Shown here: positions 23,003 to 64,000 of the stretch, in pieces | How positions within the stretch are numbered: the stretch's first letter is position 1 | Layout: every line of letters begins with the position of its first letter | IMG/VR virus record: IMGVR_UViG_3300042878_001826 | Location: 86,252-150,251 of that record | Length of the DNA: 64,000 bases | Origin: a virus | Reading direction: 5' to 3' (one strand) | Translations under genes and position numbers: made by a program | The notes under the pieces: generated by a model | Told to the model about the DNA's origin: nothing | Databases searched by the model: none | What the model saw: the letters and a program-made list of their open reading frames with translations, nothing else

Positions 23003-23026
23003 TAAATACTTTTTTTTGTTTATATA

Positions 23027-23058
23027 TTTGTCGGTGTCAGTTGTGTTTCGTATATTTG
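23027..23058 (+). promoter_or_regulatory. Host-like promoter, TTTG-N20-TATATTTG
   Basis: TTTG (23027-23030), 20-base spacer, TATATTTG (23051-23058), 14 bases before the ATG at 23073. It is likely the main promoter of the plus-strand operon that runs to about 32 kb. Confidence 0.8.
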
Positions 23059-23072
23059 TAAAAAATAAAAGC

Positions 23073-23348
23073 ATGACTAGAATATTTAGATTCGACGAGT
23101 TCAACAAAATAGAGTCCACAATCTTTAGATTGAAGACTATCGAAAGAACTGATGAAGAAGTTTGTTATACAGGAACATTGACAATAAACGGTGAAAAGAT
23201 AGTAGGTCAAATATTCTGTGAAAAAAACGGAGATTTAGAGTGCTTTCAGTTCTATGATAAGAATGGTAAAGATATATGTGACACATACGGACAAAGTATA
23301 GTCGAGTCAATAATAAAAGAAAAAATAAAAAGATTAAAAAGAAAATGA
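23073..23348 (+). CDS. Unknown small protein, first gene of the 23-32 kb operon
   Basis: A 91-residue protein starting M-T-R-I-F-R-F-D-E-F-N-K, a looser match to the capsid-targeting-like peptide. It has a central beta hairpin (Y-T-G-T-L-T-I-N-G-E-K-I-V-G-Q-I-F) and ends I-I-K-E-K-I-K-R-L-K-R-K, a loose match to the shared C-terminal tail, so it is one of the few proteins that could have both signals. The start follows the host-like promoter; an upstream open extension would run through it. ATGA overlap with the next gene. Confidence 0.7.
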   Translation: MTRIFRFDEFNKIESTIFRLKTIERTDEEVCYTGTLTINGEKIVGQIFCEKNGDLECFQFYDKNGKDICDTYGQSIVESIIKEKIKRLKRK

Positions 23349-43479: not shown

Positions 43480-43512
43480 AAAAAGCCACTCAAACTGAGT
43501 GGCTTTTTTTTA
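43480..43512. terminator. Bidirectional terminator, recurrent GCCACTC hairpin (copy 3)
   Basis: AAAGCCACTCA / TGAGTGGCTTT stem with an AAC loop and long A and T runs between convergent genes. Confidence 0.88.
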
Positions 43513-44262
43513 GTCGTTGTTTTCTGAACGATACTTATCGTATCTGTTCGCAATCTCTATTAAGAATTTATTTCTTACAATATCTGTGTTTTGGAACTCA
43601 AAAAGATTCAACTCATTCATTCCATTGACCATTTTGATGAAGTCATTATATCCAGAGTCTCTTTTCTTCACATCATACTGTGATGTATCTCCCATCATGA
43701 CCGCCTTAGAATCTTTACCTAAACGAGTTACCCAAAGCATTAGTTGTTTGATACTTGCGTTCTGACATTCGTCTAAAAGCATTATTGAGTTATCATATGT
43801 AGAACCTCTCATATAAGCAAGTGGTTCAAAAACAATCTCTTCAGTAGAAAACAAAAAGTCTGTTGCTTGTTTTCCGATTATCTTACAGAAAGAGTTATAA
43901 TATGACTGTCTATAAGGATGAAGTTTGTCTTCCATCGATCCAGGAAGAAATCCTAAGTTTTCACCAGATTCTTGTATTGGTTTTGTAATGATTATCTTTT
44001 CAATCTTTTTATCGGCTAAAAGAGCTAAAGCGGTATAACATGTAGTAAAAGTCTTAGATGTTCCGGCAGGGCCGTGAACAACGGTAAGTGTATTGTTTCT
44101 AATGCCTTTGTACAAATCATTCTGCTTTGGTGTAAGCTGTACATTGCATTTTTGGAATTCCTCTTTTGAAAGAGAGTTCTTCCTTCTGATGTTCTTACGA
44201 TATTCGTGCTCTTGCACACCTTCGTCAACTTCGTTCTTGAAATCCCGTTTTTCTCTCGCCAT
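43510..44262 (-). CDS. phoH: PhoH-like ATPase
   Basis: A 250-residue P-loop protein. Walker A is G-P-A-G-T-S-K-T (64-71), I-I-T-K-P near 91, Walker B is I-M-L-L-D164-E-C-Q-N, and V-M-M-G-D-T-S-Q-Y follows, the PhoH/RNA-helicase-like order. Frequently carried by large phages of the T4 group; its exact role (RNA metabolism, phosphate stress) is unsettled. N-terminal 40 residues are basic. Ends in the shared convergent terminator. Confidence 0.92.
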   Translation of the reverse strand: MAREKRDFKNEVDEGVQEHEYRKNIRRKNSLSKEEFQKCNVQLTPKQNDLYKGIRNNTLTVVHGPAGTSKTFTTCYTALALLADKKIEKIIITKPIQESGENLGFLPGSMEDKLHPYRQSYYNSFCKIIGKQATDFLFSTEEIVFEPLAYMRGSTYDNSIMLLDECQNASIKQLMLWVTRLGKDSKAVMMGDTSQYDVKKRDSGYNDFIKMVNGMNELNLFEFQNTDIVRNKFLIEIANRYDKYRSENND

Positions 44263-44587: not shown

Positions 44588-47500
44588 ATGTGGATATACA
44601 ACAGTAATTTTGGAAAATGGTCTTCGTCTGGCGATAACCTTACAAAAACTTCATTCGACCTTTTAAAGCAAGAGTTGTCGGCTACAAGATTCTATTCTAG
44701 GATTCTTAGTGGTGCCACGTTCATTCCGGTGAACGATTTAGATAACATCTATGATATTTTAGGAGAATGGGAGCCAAGAAACTGGTATATAAACTCTTCT
44801 GGTTCACAATATAGTGAAACGATGTCTCCTACTAAAAATGCGATGGGTATAGATAGTACTAATTCATATGAATACTATACTAAATTTATAGCAGAATATG
44901 GGTTAACATTAAAAACATTATTTACTGCGGACAGACTTATAAAAGACTCTATAAATAACTACTACTATGTCGATTTAGCAACAACGGATCAAATAAATCT
45001 AAATCAAATTTCCAATGCGATTGTAATAGACGGCGTCCTTCTTAGAAATGGACATAAAGTATTAGTTAAGGATCAAAAGACTTCGGATACTCTTCCCGGT
45101 GATTTAGATCCGGCTACTTATTTTTTAGGAGAATATAAGGTTATTGAAGATTTGGGTGGTACGATAACATATGAATACTACAACAGTGAAAACGGAATAT
45201 ACATCTATGATGGTAAAAGACTTATTAAAGATTCGATATTAGATGATTATTCTAATTGTGTGAGATATAGTGTGCATGTGAATATGGGTACTGTAAATAC
45301 CGAAAAACAGTTTCATTTAAAAAGACTTTTGAACGGATATTTTCCTACATCAAGTCTCTCTGAACCTATGGAGTTTGTAGAGAAGCACAACTGGATGCTT
45401 AGAAACAGAGTTGACTATAATAATCTTTTTGAAATAAACTATTATGATGTTATCAAGCATGGAACACAATCATATCAGATAGAAGGAGTAACTTATAGTA
45501 TACCTCCAAGAACTATTTCAGTAGGAGAGTTTGGAGTCATTTTAAACACTCAAAATTTATCTGGTCTTCAGGGAACATCTAACATAATAAACAACAAATA
45601 CAAAGTAAACCTAAGAAGTATATCTCAGACATCAACTCACTATTGGATTTGTGGTGATGATTCTATACTTCTGAAAGTAAGAAAGCATGACTTCTTTATT
45701 GAAAGAGTTACGGTTGACACTTTATCAAATCTTACATCAGTTTCTTTATTTAACGACCTTAGAGGTGCGGTAGTAGGTGAGTTTAATAGTATATTTATAA
45801 CCACTAATGGTGGACAAAAATGGAACAGACTAAAGATAGCAGACTTTGCACCATATACATACAATAAAGTTCTTTTCACAGAAGCAAATAGATTTTATAT
45901 TGGTGGAAGAAACGGAGTCTTCTTAGAAATGTATGAAGATCAGTCTGGTTGGACTGCATTAAAAAGAAGAATCTTCAAAGAGATTGATGATGATGATGAG
46001 TATTTATTAGTAGAAGGAATCAATGACCTTTATAAAACTACTATAAATACATGGGGTTTAAGTTATTCTTTTGGTAGTACACAAACCACTGCAACTACAA
46101 AGGATCTTATGTTTATCGCAACAAACAATGGTAACTTAATAACCTATGATATGACTGATGCCACAGATTTTGACTTTCTATACTTAGATTTTGGAAAGAA
46201 CTATGGTGACATAAGAAACGTTACAAGACAATCAAACACAAACAACTTTTACTTTACTGCGACGGATGGACTATACTCATTTGATATAAATAACTTTAAG
46301 TATATAGGTGTTGGAAACACTTATTCTAATACGATTTCAGGAACATACGCGACGCTTAAGTCTTCTTTGTGGGCAAACGAAATATTCGATTACGAAGAAA
46401 ATGAGTTGATAATAGCAGGAAACAACTCTTTGTTGAAAACCACAAACTATGGTACAACATTGAACTTTAATTTATTAGATGATAACTTTGAAAATAGATT
46501 GAAGTCAAAACTTCTTTTCATGGACTATGATATTGGTGCTAAACTAAACTGGTTTACTGATCAAGGAGACTACAGAATGCCAAATTCAATAACATTTAGT
46601 ACTAGTATTCCATTCAAAAAACTTGCTAATGGGTCATTATCTACTACAAGAAGTTCAGAGTATCTTTATGATATGGGATTTGGTCCTATAATATACGGTG
46701 CAACTGCACCTAGTATGCTAACACAATCAGAGTGTAACTGGCTTACTTATTGGGTAGATTCTCAAAAGACTTTCGAATATTATAGTAAATATCCACTAAA
46801 CGAATATGCAGTAAGTGGTATAACAGGAAGTATGGTTTTGATATCAACAACTTTCTCTTATGCATCGGGTGCATTAGTAAATGGTGCGATACCAAGTAAG
46901 GAAAACAAAGTGAAACTTTACAAAGGAATAATCAGTAATGATTTGACAGATATTATAAAGCTTGCACCGAGTTTTGATTATTCTGGAACACAAAGTAGTA
47001 GATATGATAAGTTAAATAGAGCCAATATAACAGCACCTACTGATTTAACACCTATAAAGCTTTATCTATATGATTATCTTATGATATTAAAAGTTCCTAC
47101 TTCTCAATACACATACAATGTAGGAGATGTTACAAGAATAGAAAGTGGTATTATAGACACAAACTTAATAGTAAATAAGACTTGGGTTGATGGAACATCT
47201 ACATACGTTTATATGTATTCCGAATTCAACCAAACAATAATAACTGATTTGATATTGAATGCTGGAGATACTTTAGTGACTTCAACTGTTACGATAACTA
47301 ACTTAAACAGATATAAAGATATTGATGAGTTAGTTTATAACTTTAATTTACATCCAATCGGAAACGCATACAAAATGCAGATAACAGGTTCTGCATCGTA
47401 TCTAAACTATGATTTGAAACTTACTCCAAAGTTTAACAATCTAACATCATATTATAACTTGGCAACAAATGTTTTTCTGAATACTTATAAGTATCAAACG

Positions 47501-50500
47501 TCTACTTATGGTAACTATGTAAAAGATATGATATACACAAGTGGATTCTTGAAGTTTGGATACACCGCAACTTATAATCTACTTGACTATTTAGAAAGTA
47601 TAAACAAAGTAAGTAATGGACTTTCAACATTCTACGCATCTAAAGAGTATCTAGCAATGCCTATATACAAAGATATTCCATTGGGATCTCTTGGTTCTAG
47701 TAACATTTATATAGACTCAAATGGAATAACACAATCGTCGACTACTGGAAACAAAATAATGTTTGGAGAAAAACTTAAACTAGAATGGGAAAGTATTTTA
47801 CTAAACACTTTTGTTGACGTTTCGATATATCAACCAGATGCAGGAGGTACATACACAACTGAAAGACTTCTTGTTATGCACAAATACAAGATAGAAAATA
47901 TAGACAATATAGGATTAAACACTTATGTAATAGAGTTCCATAAAAAAATAAACTTTCAGTTAAACACATCTCTTAATGATGGTACTATAGATATAATATC
48001 GAGAAGATCGTTGCTTCAGATAAGTGATGACTTACAGGAGTTGAACAACATACACAAAGCTAAGTTAAGTACTAAACATATTGTGAACGATACTTTTGGT
48101 TACAACAACTATCAAAGTGAACTAAACTTTAAAGTTCCTACAGATTCTTATGCTAAGATATTTCTTTCAGATGTTGATACTGTTGATTCACTTAGTGCGG
48201 TTATGTATATTGACTACAAAAACGAGTTGGCAATGAACATAACAAGACTTGATAGAGACTTCAACATTCCTATAACAAACACGGTTGATTTTGGTGGACA
48301 GCTTTTCATAACTTGTTCAGAGAAACACAAACTATCAAAAGATGATGGAATCGTATTAGAGTTTAATGGTGGTTCACAATCTTCCGCAGAATTAAATCAA
48401 AACTACTTTGGATACAGAGTTGTAACTCAGGTATATGGTGAATATGATTTTGCAGTGGATCTTCCTTATGGAAATGAAGCTTTTGTTGGATCTGACTCTG
48501 GTTATGTTAGATATGTAAAGAAAGATCCTTTCTTAAACTACCAACCAGTTGATTTGATTGATATAGGAGTAAATAAAAGAGGAAATATTGCGATTGAGCT
48601 TGGAGTTGAAAATACAAAGTTAACAGACGGAAAATTTGGATTGGTAAATGTAGACTTCAGTAAATATAGATTCAGATTAGTTGACGGATTAAACATAGAA
48701 ACAATTTCGTTGAACTTCCCTTGGCTTTTAGAAGCAGAAGTTTCTGGTGCAGTAATCGGACAGGAAGGTAGTGAAATTATTTGGTACAAAGGAATCTGGG
48801 AAGGTGGAAGATGGTTCGGTGGAACTTGGATATCAGGAACTTGGAAGCTGGGAGACTGGTATGCAGGAACTTGGAACTCTAAAATGATTAAAGACAAAAA
48901 GATTTCTGTAGAGATAGACAAAAAATCTTCTGATGAATTCCAATCTACTTGGTATACGGGAAGATGGTTTGGTGGAACATGGAACGATGGAACATGGATA
49001 AACGGAAGATTCTATGACGGAAACTGGAACGCAGGTGTTTGGAATAACGGAACTTGGAATGATGGAACTTGGAACGGAGGAAGATTCATAGGTGGTATTT
49101 GGGTAACTGGAGAATGGAATGCAGGTATATTCAACACAGATAATGAACCTGCATATTGGATAGACGGAGTTTGGAATGGTGGTGATTTTGAGAATGGAAT
49201 GTGGTATAACGGATCTTTCGAATCAAAGAACATTGATTCTAGATTTGGAACAAAGGCATACAACTCGAGAACTGCTACTTGGCACGGTGGTAAATGGTTA
49301 AGTGGAAGTTTCTTCTCTAAACTAGGAACTATACCTGATGTTTCGGATGTTCACAAATATTCTATATGGTATACGGGTCAATGGATATCTGGTGACTTCT
49401 ATGGTGGTGTCGCTTATAATATAGACTTCAAGTCTGGAACATGGCATGGTGGTATATTGGAAGATATACAAATAATCGGAATGAACGAAAACAATAACTC
49501 TTTCATATTGAACGGAATCTTTAAATTTAATATAGGAGATGAGTTTTATATAATCGACAACAATATTGAAAACGAACTTTCTGTATTGTATGGAAATAAT
49601 GATGAACCGAAAAAATACATCGTTCTTTATACAATGGAAGATACTATAAACAAATACACCGAAGTTTATGTAGCTACAAATGTAACTGACTTTAGTGGTC
49701 GATTCGTTTCTTATAAAAAGGCAAACACTGGAATAAATGCTACGTTTAGTACTAACTCTATAATAACAAATACTATAACAACAACTGGAGTTAGAGAGAC
49801 AATAAAAGATGTTAAAGTTAAAATAAATCTTTCTGTCGAAAACAAGCTGATTGAAAAATATACTCCTGTTGCTCAATATAAAGTAGGTGGACCTACAGAT
49901 CCTTTAGGAATATCAACTTGGGAGCTTCCTTTGGGAACATCACCAGGGCCAATAACTCCATCATCAAATTCGAATCCTTATCCTACGTTACCGTTATTTG
50001 ATGCGAACTCATCAAGTGCACCAAAATCTTTAGCTTCGGTAAGTGCTGGTTGGCAAAACTCTTCTGTTGGTTTGCCTGGTAATCCAGGTATTGTTCCTAA
50101 TGTATGGAACAAAGTGGGTAATGTATATGTGCATAGTAGCAACAAGAAGAAAGTCATCGGTATATCAACACAATTCTTATCTCAGGTCGAAGTAGGATCT
50201 GATATCTATCTATATAAAGTAGATCCTGTAACACCATTTGGAGCAACTATATTTGCGATACCATATCTATTGGGTAAAGTTGCGTCAATCGCGAACGACA
50301 CCGAGCTTATGTTGGTCAACGACTTCGTTCCTCTTGTCTTTTCTACAGGTACTGGATATTTGGTAAGCGCCAATGTTAACAAAGGCTATTACTTCTATGA
50401 CAACGTAGTAAACTCGACGGTTACAAATTTTAATTATAAGTTCAGATGTAATACGAACAATGGATCAAATGGTGCAACTACTCAAGTAAGCTTCTTATCA

Positions 50501-51790
50501 CAGAATCTAATAGGTGTTAGAAAGTCTGACTCATTAGGAGTCATTAAGCTACAATGGGGATTCACACCAAACGGTTATAACGGACCAGGAAACACTCTAG
50601 CAAATGGACCAATGGTATATAGAACTAATAGTAGTATGATAGCGTCATATGGAAATAACTACGTTGCTATAGAAAGAGTTTTAGACCCTATATCGCTAAA
50701 TGATATAAGCACTACAACCATTGCAACAGGAACAACATATTCTACAAGTGATGAGATATATGGTTATAGAATAGAGATTTCAGAGGACCACCTTTTTGGA
50801 AGTTATCTTGCACAATATGAAGTTGGACTAATATACCAATATGAGGTTGTCGGTCTTTCTCCTAATAGATATTACTATTTCAGAGTATTAGAAGTAAAAT
50901 CTTCCGGTATAGGAGGAATAAGAATAAACCTAAGATCACCAAATGGACAAATAATAGGACTTAAAGAGTTCAACGAAGGAAACGATGATACAAACATGAT
51001 AGACACTGTATTTTCATATGATCAGAGCTTGTCTGAATTGGATTCTGGAAAACCTATATACGAAGGTGACTTTAAGATGAACTTAGGTACACAGAGTGAA
51101 CTTGTAACTCCTGGTAAATTATATGTACATACCTCTAGATTGTTTCTTAGCTCACCAGCGACACTTTTAACAAACCAAGCTTTCTTTTTAACAAATGGAG
51201 CTATGCCTGGATCTAAAATATATGCAACCACAACCACGAATGTTGGTGGTACAATGAGATACTATGAAAAATATCTTGGTGTTGCAAAAACGGTTACAGA
51301 GACTATAATAACTTTAGTTTCTGCTGCAAATACGTCATCCTTTATTGAGATTGGTTCAACAGGAACTGCATCATTTGCAACAGGAGTTCCTTATGGCTAT
51401 AGAGTAGATAAATATTCAGCAAAATGTGATAAGTTAATATCAGAAGATTTGAATGTTAGATCACTAATCAGTAAGAACAACTATGCAGATTTCACAAATC
51501 TTGTGGGAACAACTCAGTATGCGAATGGAGATTGGACTCTTTCTATAGAAAACACAAGTGGAGTAAACATAGGACGTCTTCAGAATTGGGAAATACAATT
51601 CGGATATTCAGATGTATTAGGTGCTCAGTTATATGACGAAACTGCTGCAATAGACTCTGGTCTAAGAATAGTCAGTAGATTTAATAACGCTAACTGGAAG
51701 ACAGGAATATGGACAAACGGAATATTCAACGAAGGAATCTTTGAAACAGGAATATGGTATAATGGAGTTTTTAACGGAACTTGGGGATAA
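44588..51790 (+). CDS. Giant (2400-residue) tail/fibre-like virion protein
   Basis: A single 7.2-kb frame. Residues about 345-630 hold BNR/photosystem-II-assembly-type beta-propeller repeats (W-I-C-G-D-D-S-I, T-T-N-G-G-Q-K-W, repeated later as T-T-N-Y-G-T). A long unclassified central part follows. Residues about 1398-1570 are a run of G-x-W-x-x-G units (G-T-W-N-D-G-T-W-I-N-G), with more near 1595-1625 and at the very C-terminus. Residues about 2110-2345 resemble a proprotein-convertase P-domain (L-R-S-P-N-G...G-D-W-T-L-S-I-E-N...I-G-R-L-Q-N-W-E-I-Q-F-G). The combination suggests carbohydrate or surface binding in a tail fibre or baseplate; the role is inferred. Confidence 0.82.
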   Translation: MWIYNSNFGKWSSSGDNLTKTSFDLLKQELSATRFYSRILSGATFIPVNDLDNIYDILGEWEPRNWYINSSGSQYSETMSPTKNAMGIDSTNSYEYYTKFIAEYGLTLKTLFTADRLIKDSINNYYYVDLATTDQINLNQISNAIVIDGVLLRNGHKVLVKDQKTSDTLPGDLDPATYFLGEYKVIEDLGGTITYEYYNSENGIYIYDGKRLIKDSILDDYSNCVRYSVHVNMGTVNTEKQFHLKRLLNGYFPTSSLSEPMEFVEKHNWMLRNRVDYNNLFEINYYDVIKHGTQSYQIEGVTYSIPPRTISVGEFGVILNTQNLSGLQGTSNIINNKYKVNLRSISQTSTHYWICGDDSILLKVRKHDFFIERVTVDTLSNLTSVSLFNDLRGAVVGEFNSIFITTNGGQKWNRLKIADFAPYTYNKVLFTEANRFYIGGRNGVFLEMYEDQSGWTALKRRIFKEIDDDDEYLLVEGINDLYKTTINTWGLSYSFGSTQTTATTKDLMFIATNNGNLITYDMTDATDFDFLYLDFGKNYGDIRNVTRQSNTNNFYFTATDGLYSFDINNFKYIGVGNTYSNTISGTYATLKSSLWANEIFDYEENELIIAGNNSLLKTTNYGTTLNFNLLDDNFENRLKSKLLFMDYDIGAKLNWFTDQGDYRMPNSITFSTSIPFKKLANGSLSTTRSSEYLYDMGFGPIIYGATAPSMLTQSECNWLTYWVDSQKTFEYYSKYPLNEYAVSGITGSMVLISTTFSYASGALVNGAIPSKENKVKLYKGIISNDLTDIIKLAPSFDYSGTQSSRYDKLNRANITAPTDLTPIKLYLYDYLMILKVPTSQYTYNVGDVTRIESGIIDTNLIVNKTWVDGTSTYVYMYSEFNQTIITDLILNAGDTLVTSTVTITNLNRYKDIDELVYNFNLHPIGNAYKMQITGSASYLNYDLKLTPKFNNLTSYYNLATNVFLNTYKYQTSTYGNYVKDMIYTSGFLKFGYTATYNLLDYLESINKVSNGLSTFYASKEYLAMPIYKDIPLGSLGSSNIYIDSNGITQSSTTGNKIMFGEKLKLEWESILLNTFVDVSIYQPDAGGTYTTERLLVMHKYKIENIDNIGLNTYVIEFHKKINFQLNTSLNDGTIDIISRRSLLQISDDLQELNNIHKAKLSTKHIVNDTFGYNNYQSELNFKVPTDSYAKIFLSDVDTVDSLSAVMYIDYKNELAMNITRLDRDFNIPITNTVDFGGQLFITCSEKHKLSKDDGIVLEFNGGSQSSAELNQNYFGYRVVTQVYGEYDFAVDLPYGNEAFVGSDSGYVRYVKKDPFLNYQPVDLIDIGVNKRGNIAIELGVENTKLTDGKFGLVNVDFSKYRFRLVDGLNIETISLNFPWLLEAEVSGAVIGQEGSEIIWYKGIWEGGRWFGGTWISGTWKLGDWYAGTWNSKMIKDKKISVEIDKKSSDEFQSTWYTGRWFGGTWNDGTWINGRFYDGNWNAGVWNNGTWNDGTWNGGRFIGGIWVTGEWNAGIFNTDNEPAYWIDGVWNGGDFENGMWYNGSFESKNIDSRFGTKAYNSRTATWHGGKWLSGSFFSKLGTIPDVSDVHKYSIWYTGQWISGDFYGGVAYNIDFKSGTWHGGILEDIQIIGMNENNNSFILNGIFKFNIGDEFYIIDNNIENELSVLYGNNDEPKKYIVLYTMEDTINKYTEVYVATNVTDFSGRFVSYKKANTGINATFSTNSIITNTITTTGVRETIKDVKVKINLSVENKLIEKYTPVAQYKVGGPTDPLGISTWELPLGTSPGPITPSSNSNPYPTLPLFDANSSSAPKSLASVSAGWQNSSVGLPGNPGIVPNVWNKVGNVYVHSSNKKKVIGISTQFLSQVEVGSDIYLYKVDPVTPFGATIFAIPYLLGKVASIANDTELMLVNDFVPLVFSTGTGYLVSANVNKGYYFYDNVVNSTVTNFNYKFRCNTNNGSNGATTQVSFLSQNLIGVRKSDSLGVIKLQWGFTPNGYNGPGNTLANGPMVYRTNSSMIASYGNNYVAIERVLDPISLNDISTTTIATGTTYSTSDEIYGYRIEISEDHLFGSYLAQYEVGLIYQYEVVGLSPNRYYYFRVLEVKSSGIGGIRINLRSPNGQIIGLKEFNEGNDDTNMIDTVFSYDQSLSELDSGKPIYEGDFKMNLGTQSELVTPGKLYVHTSRLFLSSPATLLTNQAFFLTNGAMPGSKIYATTTTNVGGTMRYYEKYLGVAKTVTETIITLVSAANTSSFIEIGSTGTASFATGVPYGYRVDKYSAKCDKLISEDLNVRSLISKNNYADFTNLVGTTQYANGDWTLSIENTSGVNIGRLQNWEIQFGYSDVLGAQLYDETAAIDSGLRIVSRFNNANWKTGIWTNGIFNEGIFETGIWYNGVFNGTWG
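48780..49240 (+). repeat. G-x-W-x-x-G coding tandem repeats
   Basis: A protein-coding run in which GGA-ACT/ACA-TGG-AA(T/C) type codon groups recur every 15-27 bases, encoding W-(N/Y)-x-G-x-W units of the giant virion protein. Confidence 0.75.
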
Positions 51791-53220: not shown

Positions 53221-55917
53221 ATGGCAAGTACACCACTTTACAAAGGACTTAAATCAAATGGAACAACCTTTTACGCATTTCCAGGCGCAGCAGAGGATAT
53301 ATCGGCGGCATATCAAAATGCCAACTATAAAATGTATTTCTCTAAATATGCGTTATTGAATTTTCCTACTCAGAACTTAAGCGCGGGAACGCAATCAAAA
53401 CCAATATACTTTGACTTTGAAAGTTCTTTCAGAAGATCAGTGAATGCTACTCCTCCGGCGGATTTCTCTTCACAGATAGTAGAGTCTCTTAGAAACTATG
53501 TTGCTAACCAAGAGGTGGTAATCAGAGAAAGTAGACTTAATAGTACTAAGTATTACTATGATACTAATGCTTTGGAAACTACTAGTGAGAAATTATTTTT
53601 TAAATGGTGTAAAATGCTTAATGTAGTTGACTTTGAACCTGCAATTCCACAAGATGAATATTTTGCAAATCTTGGTGAGTTTCAAAGTAATAAATTAAAC
53701 GATGATGCTTACTTTCCAGAATATCTTTGGAAAGAAAGAGAAGTAATCGAATGGGACACAAGATACTTTTATTTAACTGACTCTGGTTCTTATAATGGAA
53801 AGATGGAGATAGAGTTCAATGGTTTGACAAATTTCAGAATCGGTGATACTATTAGAATATTCAATGTAAGTAACTCGACTATATACAACAATGGAAGTGA
53901 ACAATACTTTTATGATTCAGGTTCCGAAGAAGGACAATTCGTAAAAGTATTAGATATAATAGCACCAGGTGCAACAGCGGGTCAAAGAGTTATTATTGAT
54001 GTTGATACAGTTTTAGGTAGACAAATAGAATTTACAGGACAAGCAGAATTAGTTTATCACAGACTTATTCAATACTTAGGTGAGATTAATGGTGTTAGTA
54101 ACGTACAAGAAGCTAACAGAGCATACACAGAAGTTTATGCACATATCCCAGATCATACAGGTATGACACCTGATATTCTTTTCAGAACTAACTATGATGT
54201 AAACTATAAACCAAATTTAATATTTCCTATATTACCAAGTCAATATCAGACTGAAATAATGGGTGCGGAACTTTTTAACTCACCTATCGTTAGTTCACCT
54301 CAAAACTATCCAGGTTCTTACTTTGGACATTTTGATACATTAGACTTTACCTACGAAACTTCTACTGGTGACGTTCTTAGAAGAAGTGGTGATTATTTCG
54401 GTGTAAAAGGAGATATAAACAATCCTATAGTAACTCCACAGACAATAGATGGTCTTGGAATAGACTTTGATACCAGACACTATGTGAAGATGAACATTGC
54501 TAACAGAAAAGTAACTAACTTTGACCAGTTCAATGCTTTGGAAGTTAACAATACACCACCTAATGACTTTGAGTTTAACGCAATATTGTGGTACTATACA
54601 GTAGAGGATCAAAACGGAGTTTCTAGAACAAACGTATATGGAATCTCTTTCTTGGATAATCCAAACAACAATGATAAAGAAGAAGAAATAGGAGTAAAAT
54701 TCCCTACTTATAAAAAATTGGTTTCTAATGGAAAACAAGATGGTAGTTCTTTTGCTTTCAGTTTGAACTTAAACTTCAACATAATAAATGATAACCCACA
54801 GGATACGTATAATCCAGAGGCCATAAACTCTATGTTTAGTATGAATCTTTTCAATGCTGCAATGCAAAAACTTTCTTCTACAAATGATAGTTTTTTAAAT
54901 ATATTGGCTGATCAGGGAATCATTAAAGACGAAATAAACTCGATTAAAGGCTTGATATACACACAGACTGATATCAATGTTATCAACGCTAAAGTAAAGT
55001 CTTTAGAAGACTTAATAAGACTATATTCAACAAGACAGATGGTAACATCAGACTCTATAGAAGTGGTCACTGCAGGAACTTCTATAAAACTAAATAGTAT
55101 CGATACAAACTATGTTAAAATTGATCAAGTAAAAACAACTGATCTTTATAACGCACAGGGAATAATACCAATGAACATGGCTGTTCCTAAAAACAAAGAC
55201 TTCATGGTACACTTTATTAATAATGATGAAGTTCCACTTACACTTCCTAATAATGATAGACTTACTATTTTACTTAGTAGAGATTTAGATTTCATGCAAA
55301 CTGCAGAGTTCTATATTTCTGGAACAGAATTTGCATCACAAAATAAAAAACTAAACATATACATAAATAGTGACATCGCTACAACAACTTCAGTTAATAC
55401 TCAGGTATTGTTAGTTGGTGAGATTGATTTACCGGTTTATTACAACACTACAAAACAATTACCAAACTCTGCAATACTTTGGAAAGATTTTAAATTTGAA
55501 ATAGATTTTACACAACCAATCACACTTAGAAGTGGTGGATATCTTGACGTTCCTTTTCTTGGTAATGCTTATTTAATAAACAACTCTATAAAACCTGGTG
55601 ATACTTTACGTTTAAACAATCTTTTTGTAGGAACTTCTTCAGTGTATGATTTTTCTGGACAATATAAAGTAGATTCATTAGTTTCTGCAACAAGTTCTTA
55701 TGTAACATTTGATATAAATAGTAGTGTGGCATTTTCTACTTACACGACTACAAATAGCACTTCACTGCCAATGCAACTACATGGAACAAGTACTTCATTG
55801 CTTTCGAACCTTCCATATTTCAGTTTAAATAAAGGAAAGAAAATATTGGTGACAAGAGTTTCTCAAAGTTCTGTTGTTTTATCTGAAAGATATCGTGTGG
55901 ATGTGAGAGATATTTAA
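53221..55917 (+). CDS. Virion structural protein of unknown type
   Basis: An 898-residue protein starting M-A-S-T-P-L-Y-K-G-L-K-S-N-G-T-T-F-Y. Beta-rich with F-R-I-G-D-T-I-R-I-F segments near residues 205-215; residues about 555-605 are a short helical or coiled-coil stretch (I-K-D-E-I-N-S-I-K-G-L-I). The end, E-R-Y-R-V-D-V-R-D-I, closes a possible adhesin domain. Its place in the late block among fibre genes suggests a baseplate or neck part. No family recognised. Confidence 0.72.
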   Translation: MASTPLYKGLKSNGTTFYAFPGAAEDISAAYQNANYKMYFSKYALLNFPTQNLSAGTQSKPIYFDFESSFRRSVNATPPADFSSQIVESLRNYVANQEVVIRESRLNSTKYYYDTNALETTSEKLFFKWCKMLNVVDFEPAIPQDEYFANLGEFQSNKLNDDAYFPEYLWKEREVIEWDTRYFYLTDSGSYNGKMEIEFNGLTNFRIGDTIRIFNVSNSTIYNNGSEQYFYDSGSEEGQFVKVLDIIAPGATAGQRVIIDVDTVLGRQIEFTGQAELVYHRLIQYLGEINGVSNVQEANRAYTEVYAHIPDHTGMTPDILFRTNYDVNYKPNLIFPILPSQYQTEIMGAELFNSPIVSSPQNYPGSYFGHFDTLDFTYETSTGDVLRRSGDYFGVKGDINNPIVTPQTIDGLGIDFDTRHYVKMNIANRKVTNFDQFNALEVNNTPPNDFEFNAILWYYTVEDQNGVSRTNVYGISFLDNPNNNDKEEEIGVKFPTYKKLVSNGKQDGSSFAFSLNLNFNIINDNPQDTYNPEAINSMFSMNLFNAAMQKLSSTNDSFLNILADQGIIKDEINSIKGLIYTQTDINVINAKVKSLEDLIRLYSTRQMVTSDSIEVVTAGTSIKLNSIDTNYVKIDQVKTTDLYNAQGIIPMNMAVPKNKDFMVHFINNDEVPLTLPNNDRLTILLSRDLDFMQTAEFYISGTEFASQNKKLNIYINSDIATTTSVNTQVLLVGEIDLPVYYNTTKQLPNSAILWKDFKFEIDFTQPITLRSGGYLDVPFLGNAYLINNSIKPGDTLRLNNLFVGTSSVYDFSGQYKVDSLVSATSSYVTFDINSSVAFSTYTTTNSTSLPMQLHGTSTSLLSNLPYFSLNKGKKILVTRVSQSSVVLSERYRVDVRDI

Positions 55918-57153: not shown

Positions 57154-59460
57154 ATGAGTTTTAGTTTTGATAAATTTCTTAGACCTATAACAGCTACGGA
57201 TAGAAACATAAAGATATATGAGGATAATGGTATATTAAAATACACTATAAATCCATTCCACATCAAGAACACTAACGTTCTAAACAACACGATGAGGATA
57301 AATCTAGATTCTGATAGATCTATAGTAATGGTATTCTCCACGAACAACGAGGCTAAGATTTCATTATCTAAACTTCAGGGACAGATGGATGTTCTTACGG
57401 AAAAAGTTCCATTTATAATAGATAAAGATGTTCTTAACTATGTAACTGCAAATATCCAAAAAGGTCCTACGGGTTCAAACGGAAAGACATTCACAGGAAC
57501 TTCAAGTACATATTTGACAATACCAAATTCTGGATATTTAGTTCAGCTTACTACACAGAAAGATTTGGCATTTGTTCCTGGTCAGACTATAGTTGTATAT
57601 AAAGATTTTCCTACAAACTATTATGTTGCAGATTATTTAGATGAACCATACTATGATTATTCGGATCCAGTTTATATGGTTGGTGATGTGGATACATATA
57701 ATCCTGTTACAGGTAATTTGGCATTTGTTGCAAATGTTTGCCAACCGGTCGGTGCTACATCCAGCTTTTGGTATATAAATCTAACTGGTCAAAAAGGTAA
57801 GGATGGTACATCAGGAACATCTGGTGCATCTGCATATCAGACCTGGTTGGATGTGTATAGTCTTGAGCCACTTGCGTTCAGTGAGCAAGACTTTTTAGAT
57901 GATATTAAAGGTGAACAAGGTGAACAAGGTTTTGAAGGTCTTGCAGGAGTAAACGGAACTGATGGAACATCAGGAACATCAGGAACATCTGGTGCATCTG
58001 CATATCAGACCTGGTTGGATGTGTATGGTCTTGAGACACTTGCGTTCAGTGAGCAAGACTTTTTAAATGCTATTAAAGGTCAACAAGGTCAACAAGGTTT
58101 TGAAGGTTTACAAGGTGAAAGAGGTGCAACCGGTTCATTCGATATTGGAAACGGACTTATTCAGGTAGGAAACACAATGAGTGTTGGTGGAACTTTATAT
58201 GAGACACTTAGTTTAAATGGTGGGTATAACGATTTTATAGTTTCTGGATTTGATAATATTTCAGTAACTTCTTCTGTATTTGATGTAGTTTCTGATTTTA
58301 TTAGTCTTGATTCAAATGATTCTTCTCAAATACTATCCATAAATGATGTAACAATAATCGCAGGTGGTGAGTTAGCACTTGCAGGAACTTCCGGATTGGT
58401 TTCGATAGGAAATGGAAACGGATTGGTTTATCAATCAGACTATTCTTTAGGATTTGTTACACACTCTTTAGTGAGTAAAAAATATGTAGATGATTCTATT
58501 TTAATAGGAAGTTCAGGAACAAGCGGAACATCTGGTGTTGATGGAACATCTGGTACATCAGGAATAAGCGGTGTAGATGGTGCCGCTTCACTAAGATGGA
58601 CATTGGAAAATAATCTAGGGGCAACGCCTAGTGCGTCTGGAAAATTCACGGTTGGATATAACGCGAATATGATAAGTATTATATTATTGAAATTTGCATA
58701 TAATAGTTTGAATGTGGCATCCGAAGGATTTTGGAACACGATTGCCAATTCGATTCTTATTGGGAATTCAGTATATTTACAAGTTACAAGAGCTAATGAA
58801 CAAAATTATACAGCATTGTATAAAGTAAACAATGTTTTCTGGAGTGGTGCTGCATACGAGATTGGTGTAGATACTCCTGCGGTTTATGGTAATGGTCAAT
58901 GGTGGAATGATAATGAATACTCTGTTTCATTTTCGATAGCAGGTGCTAATGGAACTTCTGGAACTTCTGGTGTTAGTATGATAGGTGCCACCGGTTCTGA
59001 TGGGACTTCAGGAACATCTGGTATAACACCTACAACAGATTGGAGTCTAAGTGGATCATTGACCGTTTCAGGAACAGCGTCTCTTGAAGGACATACTATT
59101 TTATCCGAAATATCTGAAGTAATAAACGTAACACCTGGTGCAACTGCATCTACAGTAATCTATGATTTCAATACAGGTGCTATTTGGTATCATGCCACTG
59201 CATCTACTAACTATACTGCAAACTTTACAAACATGCCTTTAGACAACAATAGAGTAATAACAACAACAATCATGATTAGTCAGGGTCTTACTGGTTACGC
59301 ACCAACTGCTGTTCAAATAGACGGTTCTGCACAAACTATAAAATGGACAAATGGTACTTATTCGGTGTCTTCAAACAAAGTTGATATTGTTGGATTTACT
59401 TTTGTAAGATCAGAAAACGTTTGGTCGCAAGTGTTTGGACAAATAAGTTCATTTGGATAA
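57154..59460 (+). CDS. Collagen-like virion fibre protein
   Basis: A 768-residue protein. After an N-terminal region of about 210 residues come G-x-x stretches rich in G-T-S and G-x-Q (about 212-330), interrupted twice by S-A-Y-Q-T-W-L-D-V-Y and F-S-E-Q-D-F-L, a known phage collagen-linker motif. More G-T-S-G runs lie at about 450-480 and 600-635, and the C-terminal 130 residues are a beta-rich tip ending N-V-W-S-Q-V-F-G-Q. The two linker units are a 129-bp near-duplicate. Trimeric fibre or whisker likely; receptor unknown. Confidence 0.82.
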   Translation: MSFSFDKFLRPITATDRNIKIYEDNGILKYTINPFHIKNTNVLNNTMRINLDSDRSIVMVFSTNNEAKISLSKLQGQMDVLTEKVPFIIDKDVLNYVTANIQKGPTGSNGKTFTGTSSTYLTIPNSGYLVQLTTQKDLAFVPGQTIVVYKDFPTNYYVADYLDEPYYDYSDPVYMVGDVDTYNPVTGNLAFVANVCQPVGATSSFWYINLTGQKGKDGTSGTSGASAYQTWLDVYSLEPLAFSEQDFLDDIKGEQGEQGFEGLAGVNGTDGTSGTSGTSGASAYQTWLDVYGLETLAFSEQDFLNAIKGQQGQQGFEGLQGERGATGSFDIGNGLIQVGNTMSVGGTLYETLSLNGGYNDFIVSGFDNISVTSSVFDVVSDFISLDSNDSSQILSINDVTIIAGGELALAGTSGLVSIGNGNGLVYQSDYSLGFVTHSLVSKKYVDDSILIGSSGTSGTSGVDGTSGTSGISGVDGAASLRWTLENNLGATPSASGKFTVGYNANMISIILLKFAYNSLNVASEGFWNTIANSILIGNSVYLQVTRANEQNYTALYKVNNVFWSGAAYEIGVDTPAVYGNGQWWNDNEYSVSFSIAGANGTSGTSGVSMIGATGSDGTSGTSGITPTTDWSLSGSLTVSGTASLEGHTILSEISEVINVTPGATASTVIYDFNTGAIWYHATASTNYTANFTNMPLDNNRVITTTIMISQGLTGYAPTAVQIDGSAQTIKWTNGTYSVSSNKVDIVGFTFVRSENVWSQVFGQISSFG
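57811..58107 (+). repeat. 168-bp-period duplication in the collagen-like gene
   Basis: 57811-57939 is nearly identical to 57979-58107, encoding the S-A-Y-Q-T-W-L-D linker and following G-x-Q triplets. Differences cluster in a few codons, so the duplication is recent or homogenised. Confidence 0.85.
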
Positions 59461-59518: not shown

Positions 59519-62500
59519 ATGAGAAGAATATTGTTCACAGAAACAGACTTTACTACATTACCAAATCCTCCTGCAGGGTTTAAATATATTGGTTTTAACG
59601 GACCAACCTTCACCGAAAAGGATGAGAACGGATCAAGTACACCAACTGGTGGAGGTGGAAGTGCGAGTTTCACAGAAATAACTTACCAAACATTAAGAAC
59701 TTTACAAGACGGATCAGAGCTGACTCCAGGTGGTTACTACTTAATTACTAATTTCAAAACATGCTATGACCAACCAGACTATGATTCAGATGGGAGTCCT
59801 ACATTTTCAGCGAGTAATTACAAAGTATCACAGGAGAGTCCTATTTTGGTCTTTGCAATTTCAGCTAACGAGTTGGCAGCGAATGCTTACCAACCAAACT
59901 ATCCAAAGGATGAAATCAAATACGATATTTCATTCAACACAACGGAAGTTACTGGTGGAACCGCATATGGTAGAATAACATATAGAAAAGATGACAATGG
60001 AAACGCTTTCGATTATGATTTCAGAGAGGTTCTTTTCAAAAGATATGATGCATATTTTTCAGAACAGGTTTATAGCGGATTGATTTCCATCACAGGAACT
60101 TACTCCAATGGTCAAGAGGTTATTACAGGAGTTGTTACTGGAGATGGTGACTCATATTTTGGTAATTTTGCAACTGGAAGTGTTATTGGTGTTTTGAATC
60201 AAAATACTGATCCTATTGTAAATTATTATGAAGTTTTAGAAGTATTAGATGATAACAATATGGTCGTAACCGGTAATACAATCATTACAGGTGAAAATGT
60301 TCGTTTAGTTGATTCAAATCTATTAGAAGGTATGTCTTGGAAACAAAATAATATTATTTCCAGTACTGCTTCTTATGAATATCCAACCTTTGGTGACATA
60401 AGCCAATGTTTTAGTAACACAACCACAACCACAGATACATATATAGTATGGGATGAAAATACTTTCTTATTACCAAACAATGTATTCAAAGGTGAAAATA
60501 CTTATAGAGATAATTCATTTGGACATAATTTTGAAAATAACACATTTAATACTGACTGTGATTCTAACAGAATTGGAGGTTCTTTTTACAATAATATTAT
60601 TGATAACGATTTTGACAATAACATAATCAATGATAATTTTCACGATAATATAATGAAATGCGATTTTCAGCGTAACATAATTAATGGACAATTCTATGAT
60701 AACCATTTTGGAGATAATGAAAGTGATGAGGATTTTGATTATAATATCATTCATGCTAGTTTTTACAACAATTTCTACACAGGAGATAACCATTTTGAAT
60801 ACAATACAATCAAAGGAGAGTTTTACGAAAACATCATACTTGATGGTTTTAGTAAAAATACTCTTAATGGTACTTTTAGAGACAATGTCACAGAGGGTCA
60901 ATTTGAAGACAATCAAATTGGAGACGATTGTTATGCAAATATTATATTAGGAAGTTTTAGAGCAAATGTAATAAGTGATTATTTTTATGATAATGAAATT
61001 TTTGGCACATTCGAGAAAAATATACTTGGTAGTAATTTTTATAATAATAATTTTTATGCTAATGAGTTTTATGAAAACCAAATAGGTCATTACTTCAATA
61101 ACAATAACATAGGAGATTCTGGAAATGGAACCGGAAACGGCTACAGGTTCTCTGGAAATACGATTGGAAAAAATTTCAGTGATAACACAACACTTGGAGG
61201 AGATGAAGAATATTTTAGAGATAATCAGATTGGTAATGATTTTCAAAATAATAATGTCTATGGTGAATTCGAAAGAAACTTTATAGGAAATGATTTTAAT
61301 AACAACCAATCCATAGGATCGCGTTTCAACGACAATAAGATTGGAAACAATTTTAATGATAATGATAGGATTGGTGTTAATTTTGATTCAAATGTTATAG
61401 GAAACTATTTTGAATCAAATAGAGTAGGAAATAATTTTGAAAGAAATAGAATAGGTGATGCTTTCGCTAGTAACCAAATTGACAACGGTCTTTTTGACTG
61501 GGCTGAATTAAACAATCTAGTTGATAGAGAATATGATACGTTTTCAAATGCGTTGGATAATAGAATAGGTGAATACGTAGTTGGTGAAAATCTTATACTA
61601 AAAGATACGGTAAATGACGAATACTATAAAGTAAAGTTTACTCAATGGACACAAAATAGTAATGGTGGTGGATTCTCATATGAGAGAACTAAAGTGAATC
61701 CAACAACTGGTGCTACTGCAGGAGACACCGTATCTTTCACAAAACCAAATGGAGCTACATCCTCTGAATTAAGTGTAGATGTAATAGTTCCTGGTGTGTT
61801 AGAAATAACCAGAGGTAATAACAGATATATATACAATAGCGCAACAGAGTCGAATGCAGATTCAAGTTCTGCACCAACAGGTACTCTTTGGAATTCAAGA
61901 TTCTTGGCAAACAACAACGGTGCTCTTTTTAAAGACAACAATATTCAGAATGATTTTCAAAATAATAAGATATATAAAAACTTTGAAAAAAATAATATAG
62001 AAAACTCTTTTACTAATAACTTTATATACAATACATTCTTTGAGAATACAGAAATAGGAAATTATTTCGAAGAAAACACTATAGGTATAGGCTTAACTGC
62101 AAATTCTACGGATTTTAGCAAAAACAAAATTGGAAATAGTTTTAGAAAAAATTCACTACCTGGTTATTTTGAATCTAATGTGATTGGTGATGACTTTCTT
62201 AGTAACGATTTTATTGATGGTGCTTGGGGAAACACGATTAAAAATAATTTTTATAATAATGATATAGATCCTTATTTTAATGGAAATGAAATAGGAAATG
62301 ATTTTGAAGATAATACGATAGGAGAAACCTTTGTGAATAACAAAATCAACGACGGATTTTATAACAACGTGATTGCACAAAACTTCGCACACAACACGAT
62401 TGAATACGGCTTTACGAACAACAGTATAGAAAGCGACTTTGGATTCGGAGACGATGAGATAAGAGGAAACAGAATTGGAAACAACTTTACAGAAAACCAC

Positions 62501-63040
62501 GTAGGTGAGTATTTCTATGATAACAACATCTCGGATAATTTCATTGGAAACACAATGAGTCATAACTTCCAATATAATGATGTTAAAACAAGAGTTAGTA
62601 ATACAGACTTCTCAACATACAACGGAAACATATTGACATTCTCATATGACTTCACGGGAACTCTTCCAAATGAAGCCGAAGGTATTACATATTCTAGTGT
62701 ATCAGGAACTTATAGTTATGGTGGTACTGTGTCTGTGGTGGTTGATGCGACATTCGATATCTACGTAACGAGCACAACTTCATTGTCGGTTACATTGGTT
62801 AATTCGGGTAATAATTACTTACCAAGTATTGGTTTTACTGCAAGTGAGATTGCTATATCGGATTCTAATTTTGGTGGAACCGGTAGTAATGACTTATCTA
62901 TAATAATCACTGGAGTATCTGATTTACCTTCTGTATACGGAGAATACAACACTGAAATATTCAAAAGTGCAGGTAGTGTGAACAGATTGTCCTACTACGA
63001 TGCTTCCGATATCTTGACTATAAAAGACATAGATAAATAA
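59519..63040 (+). CDS. Fibre-like virion protein with nine-residue N-x-I-G-x-x-F solenoid repeats
   Basis: A 1173-residue protein. Residues about 50-85 hold a Y-Q-T-L-R-T-L-Q-D-G-S domain seen in phage fibres. From about 320 to 660 and again 800 to 1020 runs an Asn/Phe/Asp-rich repeat of about nine residues, N-x-I-G-x-x-F-x-x, likely a beta-solenoid. The two blocks are separated by a roughly 140-residue insert (D-E-Y-Y-K-V-K-F-T-Q-W, G-G-G-F-S-Y-E-R) and closed by a C-terminal beta domain. Of two nearby ATGs only the second is in frame. Role as a side-fibre or spike is inferred. Confidence 0.8.
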   Translation: MRRILFTETDFTTLPNPPAGFKYIGFNGPTFTEKDENGSSTPTGGGGSASFTEITYQTLRTLQDGSELTPGGYYLITNFKTCYDQPDYDSDGSPTFSASNYKVSQESPILVFAISANELAANAYQPNYPKDEIKYDISFNTTEVTGGTAYGRITYRKDDNGNAFDYDFREVLFKRYDAYFSEQVYSGLISITGTYSNGQEVITGVVTGDGDSYFGNFATGSVIGVLNQNTDPIVNYYEVLEVLDDNNMVVTGNTIITGENVRLVDSNLLEGMSWKQNNIISSTASYEYPTFGDISQCFSNTTTTTDTYIVWDENTFLLPNNVFKGENTYRDNSFGHNFENNTFNTDCDSNRIGGSFYNNIIDNDFDNNIINDNFHDNIMKCDFQRNIINGQFYDNHFGDNESDEDFDYNIIHASFYNNFYTGDNHFEYNTIKGEFYENIILDGFSKNTLNGTFRDNVTEGQFEDNQIGDDCYANIILGSFRANVISDYFYDNEIFGTFEKNILGSNFYNNNFYANEFYENQIGHYFNNNNIGDSGNGTGNGYRFSGNTIGKNFSDNTTLGGDEEYFRDNQIGNDFQNNNVYGEFERNFIGNDFNNNQSIGSRFNDNKIGNNFNDNDRIGVNFDSNVIGNYFESNRVGNNFERNRIGDAFASNQIDNGLFDWAELNNLVDREYDTFSNALDNRIGEYVVGENLILKDTVNDEYYKVKFTQWTQNSNGGGFSYERTKVNPTTGATAGDTVSFTKPNGATSSELSVDVIVPGVLEITRGNNRYIYNSATESNADSSSAPTGTLWNSRFLANNNGALFKDNNIQNDFQNNKIYKNFEKNNIENSFTNNFIYNTFFENTEIGNYFEENTIGIGLTANSTDFSKNKIGNSFRKNSLPGYFESNVIGDDFLSNDFIDGAWGNTIKNNFYNNDIDPYFNGNEIGNDFEDNTIGETFVNNKINDGFYNNVIAQNFAHNTIEYGFTNNSIESDFGFGDDEIRGNRIGNNFTENHVGEYFYDNNISDNFIGNTMSHNFQYNDVKTRVSNTDFSTYNGNILTFSYDFTGTLPNEAEGITYSSVSGTYSYGGTVSVVVDATFDIYVTSTTSLSVTLVNSGNNYLPSIGFTASEIAISDSNFGGTGSNDLSIIITGVSDLPSVYGEYNTEIFKSAGSVNRLSYYDASDILTIKDIDK
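60478..62580 (+). repeat. Nine-residue coding repeat blocks with an insert
   Basis: Two blocks (about 60478-61500 and 61921-62580) of diverged roughly 27-base coding repeats. Third-position divergence is high, so the repeats are old, unlike the collagen duplication nearby. Confidence 0.7.
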
Positions 63041-63057
63041 AAAATAAATAATAAGAA

Positions 63058-64000
63058 ATGAAGAAATATATCGTAGATAATCTATCGAACCAAAGTATAA
63101 CTGGTCAGTTAACGATAAACGGAGGACTGACCGTTGTTGATGAGAATTTCACTACCTTAACATACAGAGCACTTTTGACACAAACCGGACCAATTGTGGG
63201 TACGGAAATATTAGATTTAGAGGGTGGATTTATTGTAGGAGAAGAATACACTATCACCAATTATGTAGATGGTGACGACTTCACCAATATAGGTGCTACT
63301 ATCAGCGCGACCGGAAGCGTTTTCATAGCAACGGGAGAAATACCAAACGTTTGGGCAAACGGATCTACAATAACATCTACAGGAGATATATTCGCAAATG
63401 TTTTGGAAAATACATTGGGGTATGATTTACAATGGGAGCAAAATCCAACTGCACCACCGGGAATTTATGCGGGATTTGATTCCAACTTTGGACCAAAATA
63501 CAACAACTTTCCTAAAGACAGAACATTTATTACGGTACAAGAGACTGGATATTTCTTTGAAGCGGATAATATAAGATATTATCCAAGTACTAGAGAGATT
63601 GTTGTAAAGAATGATAGTATAGGTCTCGATGTAAGAAATATAAACTATCAATCTTGGACACAGTCAGATTGGATTGAGAATAGACTATATTTAACACCGG
63701 TTGAGATAAAAGTAAAGCAAAATATTGACAAGACTCCTATATTATTAACTGGTATGAGTGTAGTTGACTATTCGACCGAATCTACTATAGATGTGGTACT
63801 ATACAATAACAATGATTTTGTAGAGTACTTCACGACTTCTGTTAGTATGCCCAATAATATTACAGAACTTGTCACGTTATTGAACAATGATGAAGGAACC
63901 AATTTTTTAGGAGTCTTTTCAGATGACGGTAACGATGGGTTAGAATTTTCAATGTATGCAAATCTTGTAGAGAGATTCAACACATTTGGAACTTTGAATT
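63058..64000 (+). CDS. Fibre-like virion protein, 3'-truncated
   Basis: The frame is open from its ATG to the window end (314 codons seen), so the C-terminus lies beyond. It starts M-K-K-Y-I-V-D-N-L-S-N-Q. Residues about 60-102 contain Y-T-I-T-N-Y-V-D-G-D-D-F-T-N-I-G-A, then F-I-A-T-G-E-I-P-N-V-W, a motif frequent in phage fibres of Bacteroidota. It begins 18 bases after the preceding gene in the same late run. Receptor-binding role is inferred. Confidence 0.75.
   Translation, partial: MKKYIVDNLSNQSITGQLTINGGLTVVDENFTTLTYRALLTQTGPIVGTEILDLEGGFIVGEEYTITNYVDGDDFTNIGATISATGSVFIATGEIPNVWANGSTITSTGDIFANVLENTLGYDLQWEQNPTAPPGIYAGFDSNFGPKYNNFPKDRTFITVQETGYFFEADNIRYYPSTREIVVKNDSIGLDVRNINYQSWTQSDWIENRLYLTPVEIKVKQNIDKTPILLTGMSVVDYSTESTIDVVLYNNNDFVEYFTTSVSMPNNITELVTLLNNDEGTNFLGVFSDDGNDGLEFSMYANLVERFNTFGTLN

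Follow-up and report, generated by a model that had tools for sequence, protein, structure and literature searches.

The final 64 kb of a 150,251-base virus record (IMG/VR record IMGVR_UViG_3300042878_001826, positions 86,252 to 150,251; this whole stretch of 64,000 nucleotides is referred to as the window, and its numbering is used throughout) contain an open reading frame (ORF) of 1173 amino acids, confirmed at 59519-63040 on the + strand, much of whose product consists of a nine-residue repeat. The product is probably (at a rough probability of 0.8) a tail fibre or tailspike of modular build from a large phage, a host-binding rod with an exchangeable distal part. The parts of the gene are:

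59519..63040, + strand: whole gene, 1173 amino acids, probable modular solenoid fibre or spike protein
59519..59668, + strand: N-terminal anchor, residues 1-50; best match in relative L043; the anchors of relatives form 15 clusters
59669..60388, + strand: conserved N-terminal domain, residues ~51-290 ('YDQPD...DYDxR')
60476..61483, + strand: solenoid block 1, residues 320-655, ~18 coils of 18 residues
61487..61918, + strand: inserted beta-rich domain, residues 657-800, ~144 residues, order A-B
61919..62593, + strand: solenoid block 2, residues 801-1025, ~12 coils; the region swapped among relatives
62594..63037, + strand: C-terminal beta domain(s), residues 1026-1173, terminating in a recurrent RLSYYDxSDxLxI tail

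A sequence-only reading of this DNA had proposed about 60 copies of a nine-residue N-x-I-G-x-x-F unit in two blocks around an insert of about 140 residues, and that description holds: the blocks (residues 320-655 and 800-1025) have 562 residues in total, space for ~62 units, a looser form of the motif counts 53 copies, and the insert has ~144 residues. The strict motif N.[IVFLM]...[FYW]..[NDSG] occurs 43 times (23 and 20 in the two blocks) and not once outside them; in 2000 shuffles of the protein its mean count is 2.6 and its maximum 9. Autocorrelation at 9, 18 and 27 residues is 0.25, 0.23 and 0.20 in block 1 and 0.27, 0.22 and 0.19 in block 2 (~0.10 being expected), and 9-residue periodicity is absent by the same measure from the N-terminal part, the insert and the C-terminal part. 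The period is constant at 9 in both blocks, though several loops break the runs (spacings of, for example, 16, 22, 27 and 34). The unit consensus from 3449 units of relatives is N(68%)-x-I(51%)-G(33%)-N/D-N/D-F(57%)-x-x, with the qualification that positions 1, 3 and 7 are partly selected by the search motif itself.

The structural coil of this rod is longer than its sequence unit. In 223 unbroken runs comprising 1553 units from 63 non-redundant proteins, outward positions two units apart are identical at a frequency of 0.225, compared with 0.173 after shuffling (z +15), and likeness is above shuffled also at four units (z +4); positions one and three units apart are less alike than shuffled (z -6.6 and -5.0, respectively). 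Because outward likeness recurs at two units (18 residues), and not at one or three, the coil is a pair of nonapeptides: the sequence unit is 9 and the structural coil 18, the pair probably forming four short sides. (What this means for the nonapeptide first proposed is that it stands as the unit of sequence and not as the unit of structure, on the evidence of AlphaFold2 as well as of the lag analysis.) Indel lengths were dropped as a measure of coil size as too noisy, and the lag analysis was taken instead. A distant repeat protein in phage record LR756504 has its autocorrelation peak directly at 18 (0.21). The rise of a beta-helix is 4.8 Å per coil, and 562 residues, or ~31 coils, would make a rod of roughly 15 nm.

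Structure prediction supports the claim of a beta-solenoid. The AlphaFold2 model of the whole protein (model 1, a monomer prediction from 55 sequences) has a mean predicted local distance difference test (pLDDT) score of 73, rising above 90 over residues ~420-530, with two-residue strands at intervals of 4-5 residues. Model 2, of the solenoid-plus-insert segment 437-900 (30 sequences), has pLDDT 77.7 and a predicted template modelling score (pTM) of 0.77; its insert is beta-rich and its regular stretches have four short strands per 18 residues. VIA-align places block 1 of model 1 on the pentapeptide-repeat protein EfsQnr (Z 13.4, 184 residues aligned at 3.1 Å to a target of 207); for block 2 the neighbours are polygalacturonase-like helices (Z 13.7, 3.9 Å). 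The structure closest to model 2 is the cyanophage Pam1 tailspike (Z 19.4, root-mean-square deviation 3.7, 313 residues aligned), and the listed phage tailspikes (Pam1, phi92 colanidase, P22) score Z 14.6-19.4. A quadrilateral helix is suggested by the EfsQnr score and by the four strands per 18 residues; three-sided helices score equally high.

The protein belongs to a large, almost unannotated set of what appear to be attachment proteins in big environmental phages. A first scan of IMG/VR found 12 loci and a profile scan 224 confirmed relatives, 80 of which were kept for analysis (loci of relatives carry L numbers); scanned with a profile, the genomes of bacteria and archaea gave one confirmed locus, in a contig of a Chitinophagaceae metagenome-assembled genome (MAG). 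A search of 50,697 phage records recovered no more than the N-terminal domain, in MT835470 and LR756504 with the window protein as query, and in LR756504 and gp99 of phage PAU when a relative was the query. This domain (residues ~51-290) is shared with PAU gp99 and with a protein, itself without an F-bearing solenoid, of a 636-kb phage. A Foldseek search of a viral library returned a single match below E 0.001, H9NBX6 (1048 amino acids, E 4.4e-5), whose equal length suggests that it is PAU gp99. Two matches of the whole protein, to POLO_box (E 0.014) and to a cytochrome (E 0.27), fall short of any threshold.

The 78 distinct proteins compared have 508-2149 amino acids and 23-106 loose-motif units (some are truncated by contig ends). 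Their C-terminal ends are of several types, and the first 48 residues, compared in 74 proteins, form 15 anchor clusters. One of these clusters is represented by L016, whose N-terminus matches Pfam Mtd_N (PF18454) above cut-off (E 1.7e-8); L016 and L017 are the same contig sequence, from a 430-kb record, in which (L017:5188-15438) four genes, including the solenoid gene, start with RILLRRD-type (Mtd_N-like) anchors. Elsewhere a single phage record has two solenoid genes in tandem, one with the insert and one without (L042:5869-10050 and L042:10372-13161). The solenoid alignment comprises 54 of 62 proteins and the window protein (L044, L045, L047, L042:10372, L055, L051, L048 and L088 were excluded).

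The inserted domain consists of two halves, A and B, in which R, D, W and Y residues are invariant. (The insert alignment holds 15 of 17 segments and the window, the B-A forms L098 and L099 being excluded; the solenoid-plus-insert alignment holds 29 segments and the window, with L104 and L119 skipped as lacking a solenoid.) On its own the insert has no usable match in Pfam, NCBIfam or the PDB, and neither it nor the B-A form from L099 matches anything among the 50,697 phage records. Its halves are ordered AB in 28, ABAB in 2, AAB in 4, BA in 7, BABA in 4, BABABA in 1 and BBBAAA in 1 of 47 distinct ORFs; in the four AAB forms the A half is split by a further inserted stretch, and in the B-first forms the solenoid is absent. 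Insert domains without a solenoid are found in other fibre-like proteins (L135, L138, L143-L150, L098 and L099), in B-A, tandem or permuted order. Because such circularly permuted and tandem orders occur in other proteins, the insert looks like a mobile phage module, conserved and optional. It is present in 33 of the 78 solenoid-family proteins and absent from 45, a frequency that may be overstated, some of the 78 having been found through the insert. Four of these domains (L132, L133, L137 and L142) have ~65 extra residues within the A half that terminate in an 'FIATGTTP' motif resembling a stretch of the ORF downstream in the window (63058-), a module nested in a module.

The insert had been pictured as an exposed recognition head. 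That it is a separate domain stands; the head, as proposed, is rejected, since the domain is optional, occurs without the solenoid and shows no greater variability than the surrounding rod. Over 253 pairs of insert-bearing proteins, median identity is 0.63 in the N-terminal core, 0.53 in the rod before the insert, 0.57 in the insert and 0.48 in the rod after it. The comparison of insert diversity among relatives points elsewhere: it is the distal solenoid that close relatives have exchanged. Fourteen of 528 pairs met the closeness thresholds; 9 of them are discordant across the insert and 5 concordant, and in 8 of the 9 the proximal part is conserved and the distal part diverged, the remaining pair showing the reverse (these close pairs overlap and are not independent). 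For L010 and L117, DNA identity is 0.84-1.0 up to about codon 780 and 0.57-0.75 after it, the drop coming ~90 codons beyond the insert, and L117 and L106 remain alike where L010 and L117 diverge. Exchange of fibre tips is a known pattern in phages, which the L010/L117 pair fits. These alignments indicate that recombination replaces the distal solenoid and that the insert is not the variable head. Natural recombinants reveal the swapped part, so that host-range determinants become testable through one defined stretch.

The gene neighbourhood is that of a structural protein:

57154..59460, + strand: upstream neighbour, collagen-like (GTSGTSG) tail-fibre-type protein, 768 amino acids, with PHROG matches
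63058..63999, + strand: downstream neighbour (KYIVDNL...), truncated where the contig stops; in many relatives a counterpart comes after the solenoid gene

The upstream gene matches collagen-like and tail-fibre PHROGs and directly precedes the solenoid gene, and in relatives too the solenoid gene lies near fibre genes. About 3 kb upstream of it in L005 lies the gene for a T4-type major capsid protein (PF07068, E 3e-76). PF07068 is above cut-off in 11 of 12 records tested (10 of the 11 that bear a solenoid, two of which, L005 and L013, hold identical locus sequence, and one with the insert only). Phage origin is supported, and the source is most likely a large phage of the T4-like superfamily. 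The host is most likely a member of the Bacteroidota: one solenoid relative lies in the Chitinophagaceae contig, and for phage PAU, whose gp99 shares the N-terminal domain, the available text of PMC3738902 proposes reassignment of the host to Sphingobacterium.

Other genes in the window include a D12 adenine methyltransferase (12845-13687), a pyridoxal-phosphate-dependent enzyme (22133-23119; PALP, E 3.6e-70), PhoH (43510-44262) and an ORF of 2400 amino acids (44588-51790) whose C-terminus carries a proprotein-convertase P-domain (PF01483, E 4.5e-8) and which is otherwise without family. The start of a gene for 898 amino acids (53221-53760) has 75.6% DNA identity to the 642-kb phage record LR756502, the region's only DNA-level match in the phage-record collection.

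On the proposed reading, a short N-terminal anchor would fix the protein to the virion, with the conserved globular domain next to it, followed by a rigid rod of ~30 coils, each made of two nonapeptides and four short beta-strands around a core of stacked Ile and Phe, with Asn at a recurrent position of each nonapeptide. The optional beta-rich domain would be inserted about two thirds of the way along the rod, and a small C-terminal domain would form the tip. We infer that the protein is located on the virion, possibly as a trimer, and binds a receptor: outward side chains of the rod, together with the tip, would contact the host surface, and replacement of the distal rod by recombination would change specificity while anchor, proximal rod and insert are retained. 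With two nonapeptides to each coil, the repeat code is simple and allows the outward-facing side chains to be predicted.

A number of points weigh against this interpretation. The whole protein has no usable match in Pfam, PHROGs, NCBIfam or PDB sequences; no virion proteomics was found; and the window's own 150-kb record, which is a fragment, yielded neither a Gp23 above cut-off nor a tail sheath match. Relative L088 may be a misbinned phage contig. The fold assignment comes from AlphaFold2 and from VIA-align, in which many beta-helices score alike; in model 1 the pLDDT of 152 residues is below 50, and neither model matches the PDB significantly by Foldseek (best E 1.2e-3, probability 0.21; best 0.11). 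Gap lengths between relatives are not clean multiples of 18, and 9 outnumbers 18.

It is possible, though rather unlikely, that the rod is a passive spacer and that host contact is made only by the C-terminal tip or by the products of other fibre genes. The wide range of repeat number and the several C-terminal types are what interchangeable spacers and tips would show; the coil-to-coil patterns kept at outward positions, and the extent of the exchanged stretch, which spans distal rod as well as tip, argue against this. More doubtful is an enzymatic tailspike, a polysaccharide depolymerase whose solenoid groove or insert would cleave the host capsule. The nearest solved folds of model 2 are largely depolymerase tailspikes and polysaccharide lyases, and the invariant R, D, W and Y of the insert might be catalytic; set against this, no glycoside-hydrolase or lyase family is matched, the insert is missing from 45 of the 78 proteins, the invariant solenoid columns consist almost wholly of Asn, Ile, Phe and Gly, acidic residues being few, and no catalytic cluster has been identified, though no coordinate search for one was made. 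A bacterial cell-surface or secreted protein (an adhesin, or ice-binding-like) on a misassigned contig is very improbable, given tail-fibre and capsid gene neighbours and 224 relatives in virus contigs against one bacterial or archaeal locus, even though beta-solenoid adhesins exist and that single locus comes from a contig of a bacterial MAG. That the repeats are low-complexity sequence without a fold is hardly credible, since for all that Asn makes up 22% of the residues of the blocks, core spacing is strict, AlphaFold2 confidence exceeds 90 over a long stretch and conservation is family-wide.

Beside the solenoid gene, many relatives encode a conserved protein of ~205 amino acids that is putatively a 2-oxoglutarate (2OG)-Fe(II) oxygenase:

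L084:10972-11595, L043:9998-10627, L017:10428-11063 and many others, near solenoid genes: putative 2OG-Fe(II) oxygenase (PHYD...KH...R)

HxD...H...R is the residue motif of 2OG-Fe(II) oxygenases, and H117, D119, H165 and R174 (the PHYD, KH and R residues) are invariant in 20 of 20 candidates aligned, which have 51-92% identity to the first member of the alignment (28 distinct proteins less near-duplicates and three short ones). No curated family is matched above cut-off (4 of the 20 match Asp_Arg_Hydrox, none better than E 0.083), and the best PDB match of the profile is a prolyl-4-hydroxylase (E 0.47, exactly over HxD); because these matches are weak, the assignment leans mainly on the motif. 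In a scan for the hydroxylase only (best 80 of 143 relatives analysed, 55 distinct), a solenoid gene is located upstream on the same strand, 0.2-3.6 kb away, at 38 of the 39 distinct hydroxylase loci whose upstream DNA extends 3 kb or more. (The 31 loci of a separate neighbour comparison were chosen for having a solenoid, so that their count of 31/31 is no evidence of linkage; the 38/39 is.) The hydroxylase occurs at 36 of 74 distinct solenoid loci and at none of 18 loci without a solenoid. It was found nowhere in the 30 solenoid records that lack it at the locus (many of them fragments; 6 of 6 positive controls were detected), nor in the 18 non-solenoid records. With 36 of 74 loci having it and none elsewhere in the 30 lacking records, the hydroxylase is an optional partner of the solenoid gene. 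The linkage may come partly from shared ancestry, because another gene, the next-best shared neighbour, is common to 22 of the 31 loci. In L043, the window's nearest relative by anchor, the hydroxylase lies one gene past the counterpart of the gene at 63058; the window contig ends inside that gene, before the expected place of a hydroxylase.

Asparaginyl hydroxylases modify repeat proteins. By analogy, the phage-encoded enzyme might act on the Asn ladder, hydroxylating its side chains and so adjusting the stability of the rod or its recognition of surfaces, an idea that is speculative and on balance unlikely. The solenoid gene upstream at 38 of 39 loci and the invariance of the presumed catalytic residues speak for it; against it, only about half of the solenoid loci have the candidate, the 22 of 31 loci sharing another gene weaken the linkage, and Asn content does not differ between solenoids with and without it. 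No hydroxylases acting on phage fibres were found in the literature, as covered by titles and the starts of abstracts. The candidate raises the question of chemical modification of phage fibres in the course of their assembly.

The literature likewise yielded no account of such a repeat in phage fibres, subscription papers being mostly outside the coverage. Among known systems, the modelled rod would resemble pentapeptide-repeat proteins (PF00805; EfsQnr, 2w7z) in forming a quadrilateral beta-helix each of whose short sides turns one residue inward. Pentapeptide-repeat proteins have four repeats per coil (PMC8145042, in its available text). The defining run of at least eight contiguous five-residue repeats, with 20 residues per coil, is not found in the window protein, whose unit is 9 and coil 18; Ile and Phe alternate here with a recurrent Asn, the setting is a probable phage fibre that carries anchors and an inserted domain, and no Pfam pentapeptide family matches at E up to 1. 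With the right-handed beta-helix tailspikes (Pam1, 7eea; phi92 colanidase, 6e0v; P22, 1tsp) the protein shares an N-terminal anchor, a C-terminal domain and a parallel beta-helix rod, the last seen on the model only (VIA-align Z up to 19.4, Foldseek not significant). Those tailspikes have longer, three-sided coils, and there is no sequence match to them. Relative L016 shares its anchor with the major tropism determinant (Mtd) and other Mtd_N-anchored fibres (PF18454), and this domain is absent from the window protein. RTX repeats have a 9-residue unit and an 18-residue coil, and the window protein is like them in both; in contrast, its units are without the GGxGxD calcium motif and Pfam HemolysinCabind is not matched. 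The recently described Knotted Solenoid fold, whose nearest unknotted relatives are the pentapeptide-repeat proteins, would differ in being three-sided, knotted and from a specific group of bacteria (PMC13123833, in its available text). Sequence does not show membership in a named family, and the protein behaves like a beta-helix tail fibre or tailspike that is set apart by its paired-nonapeptide coil, its permutable insert module, the exchange of its distal rod and its linked gene partner.

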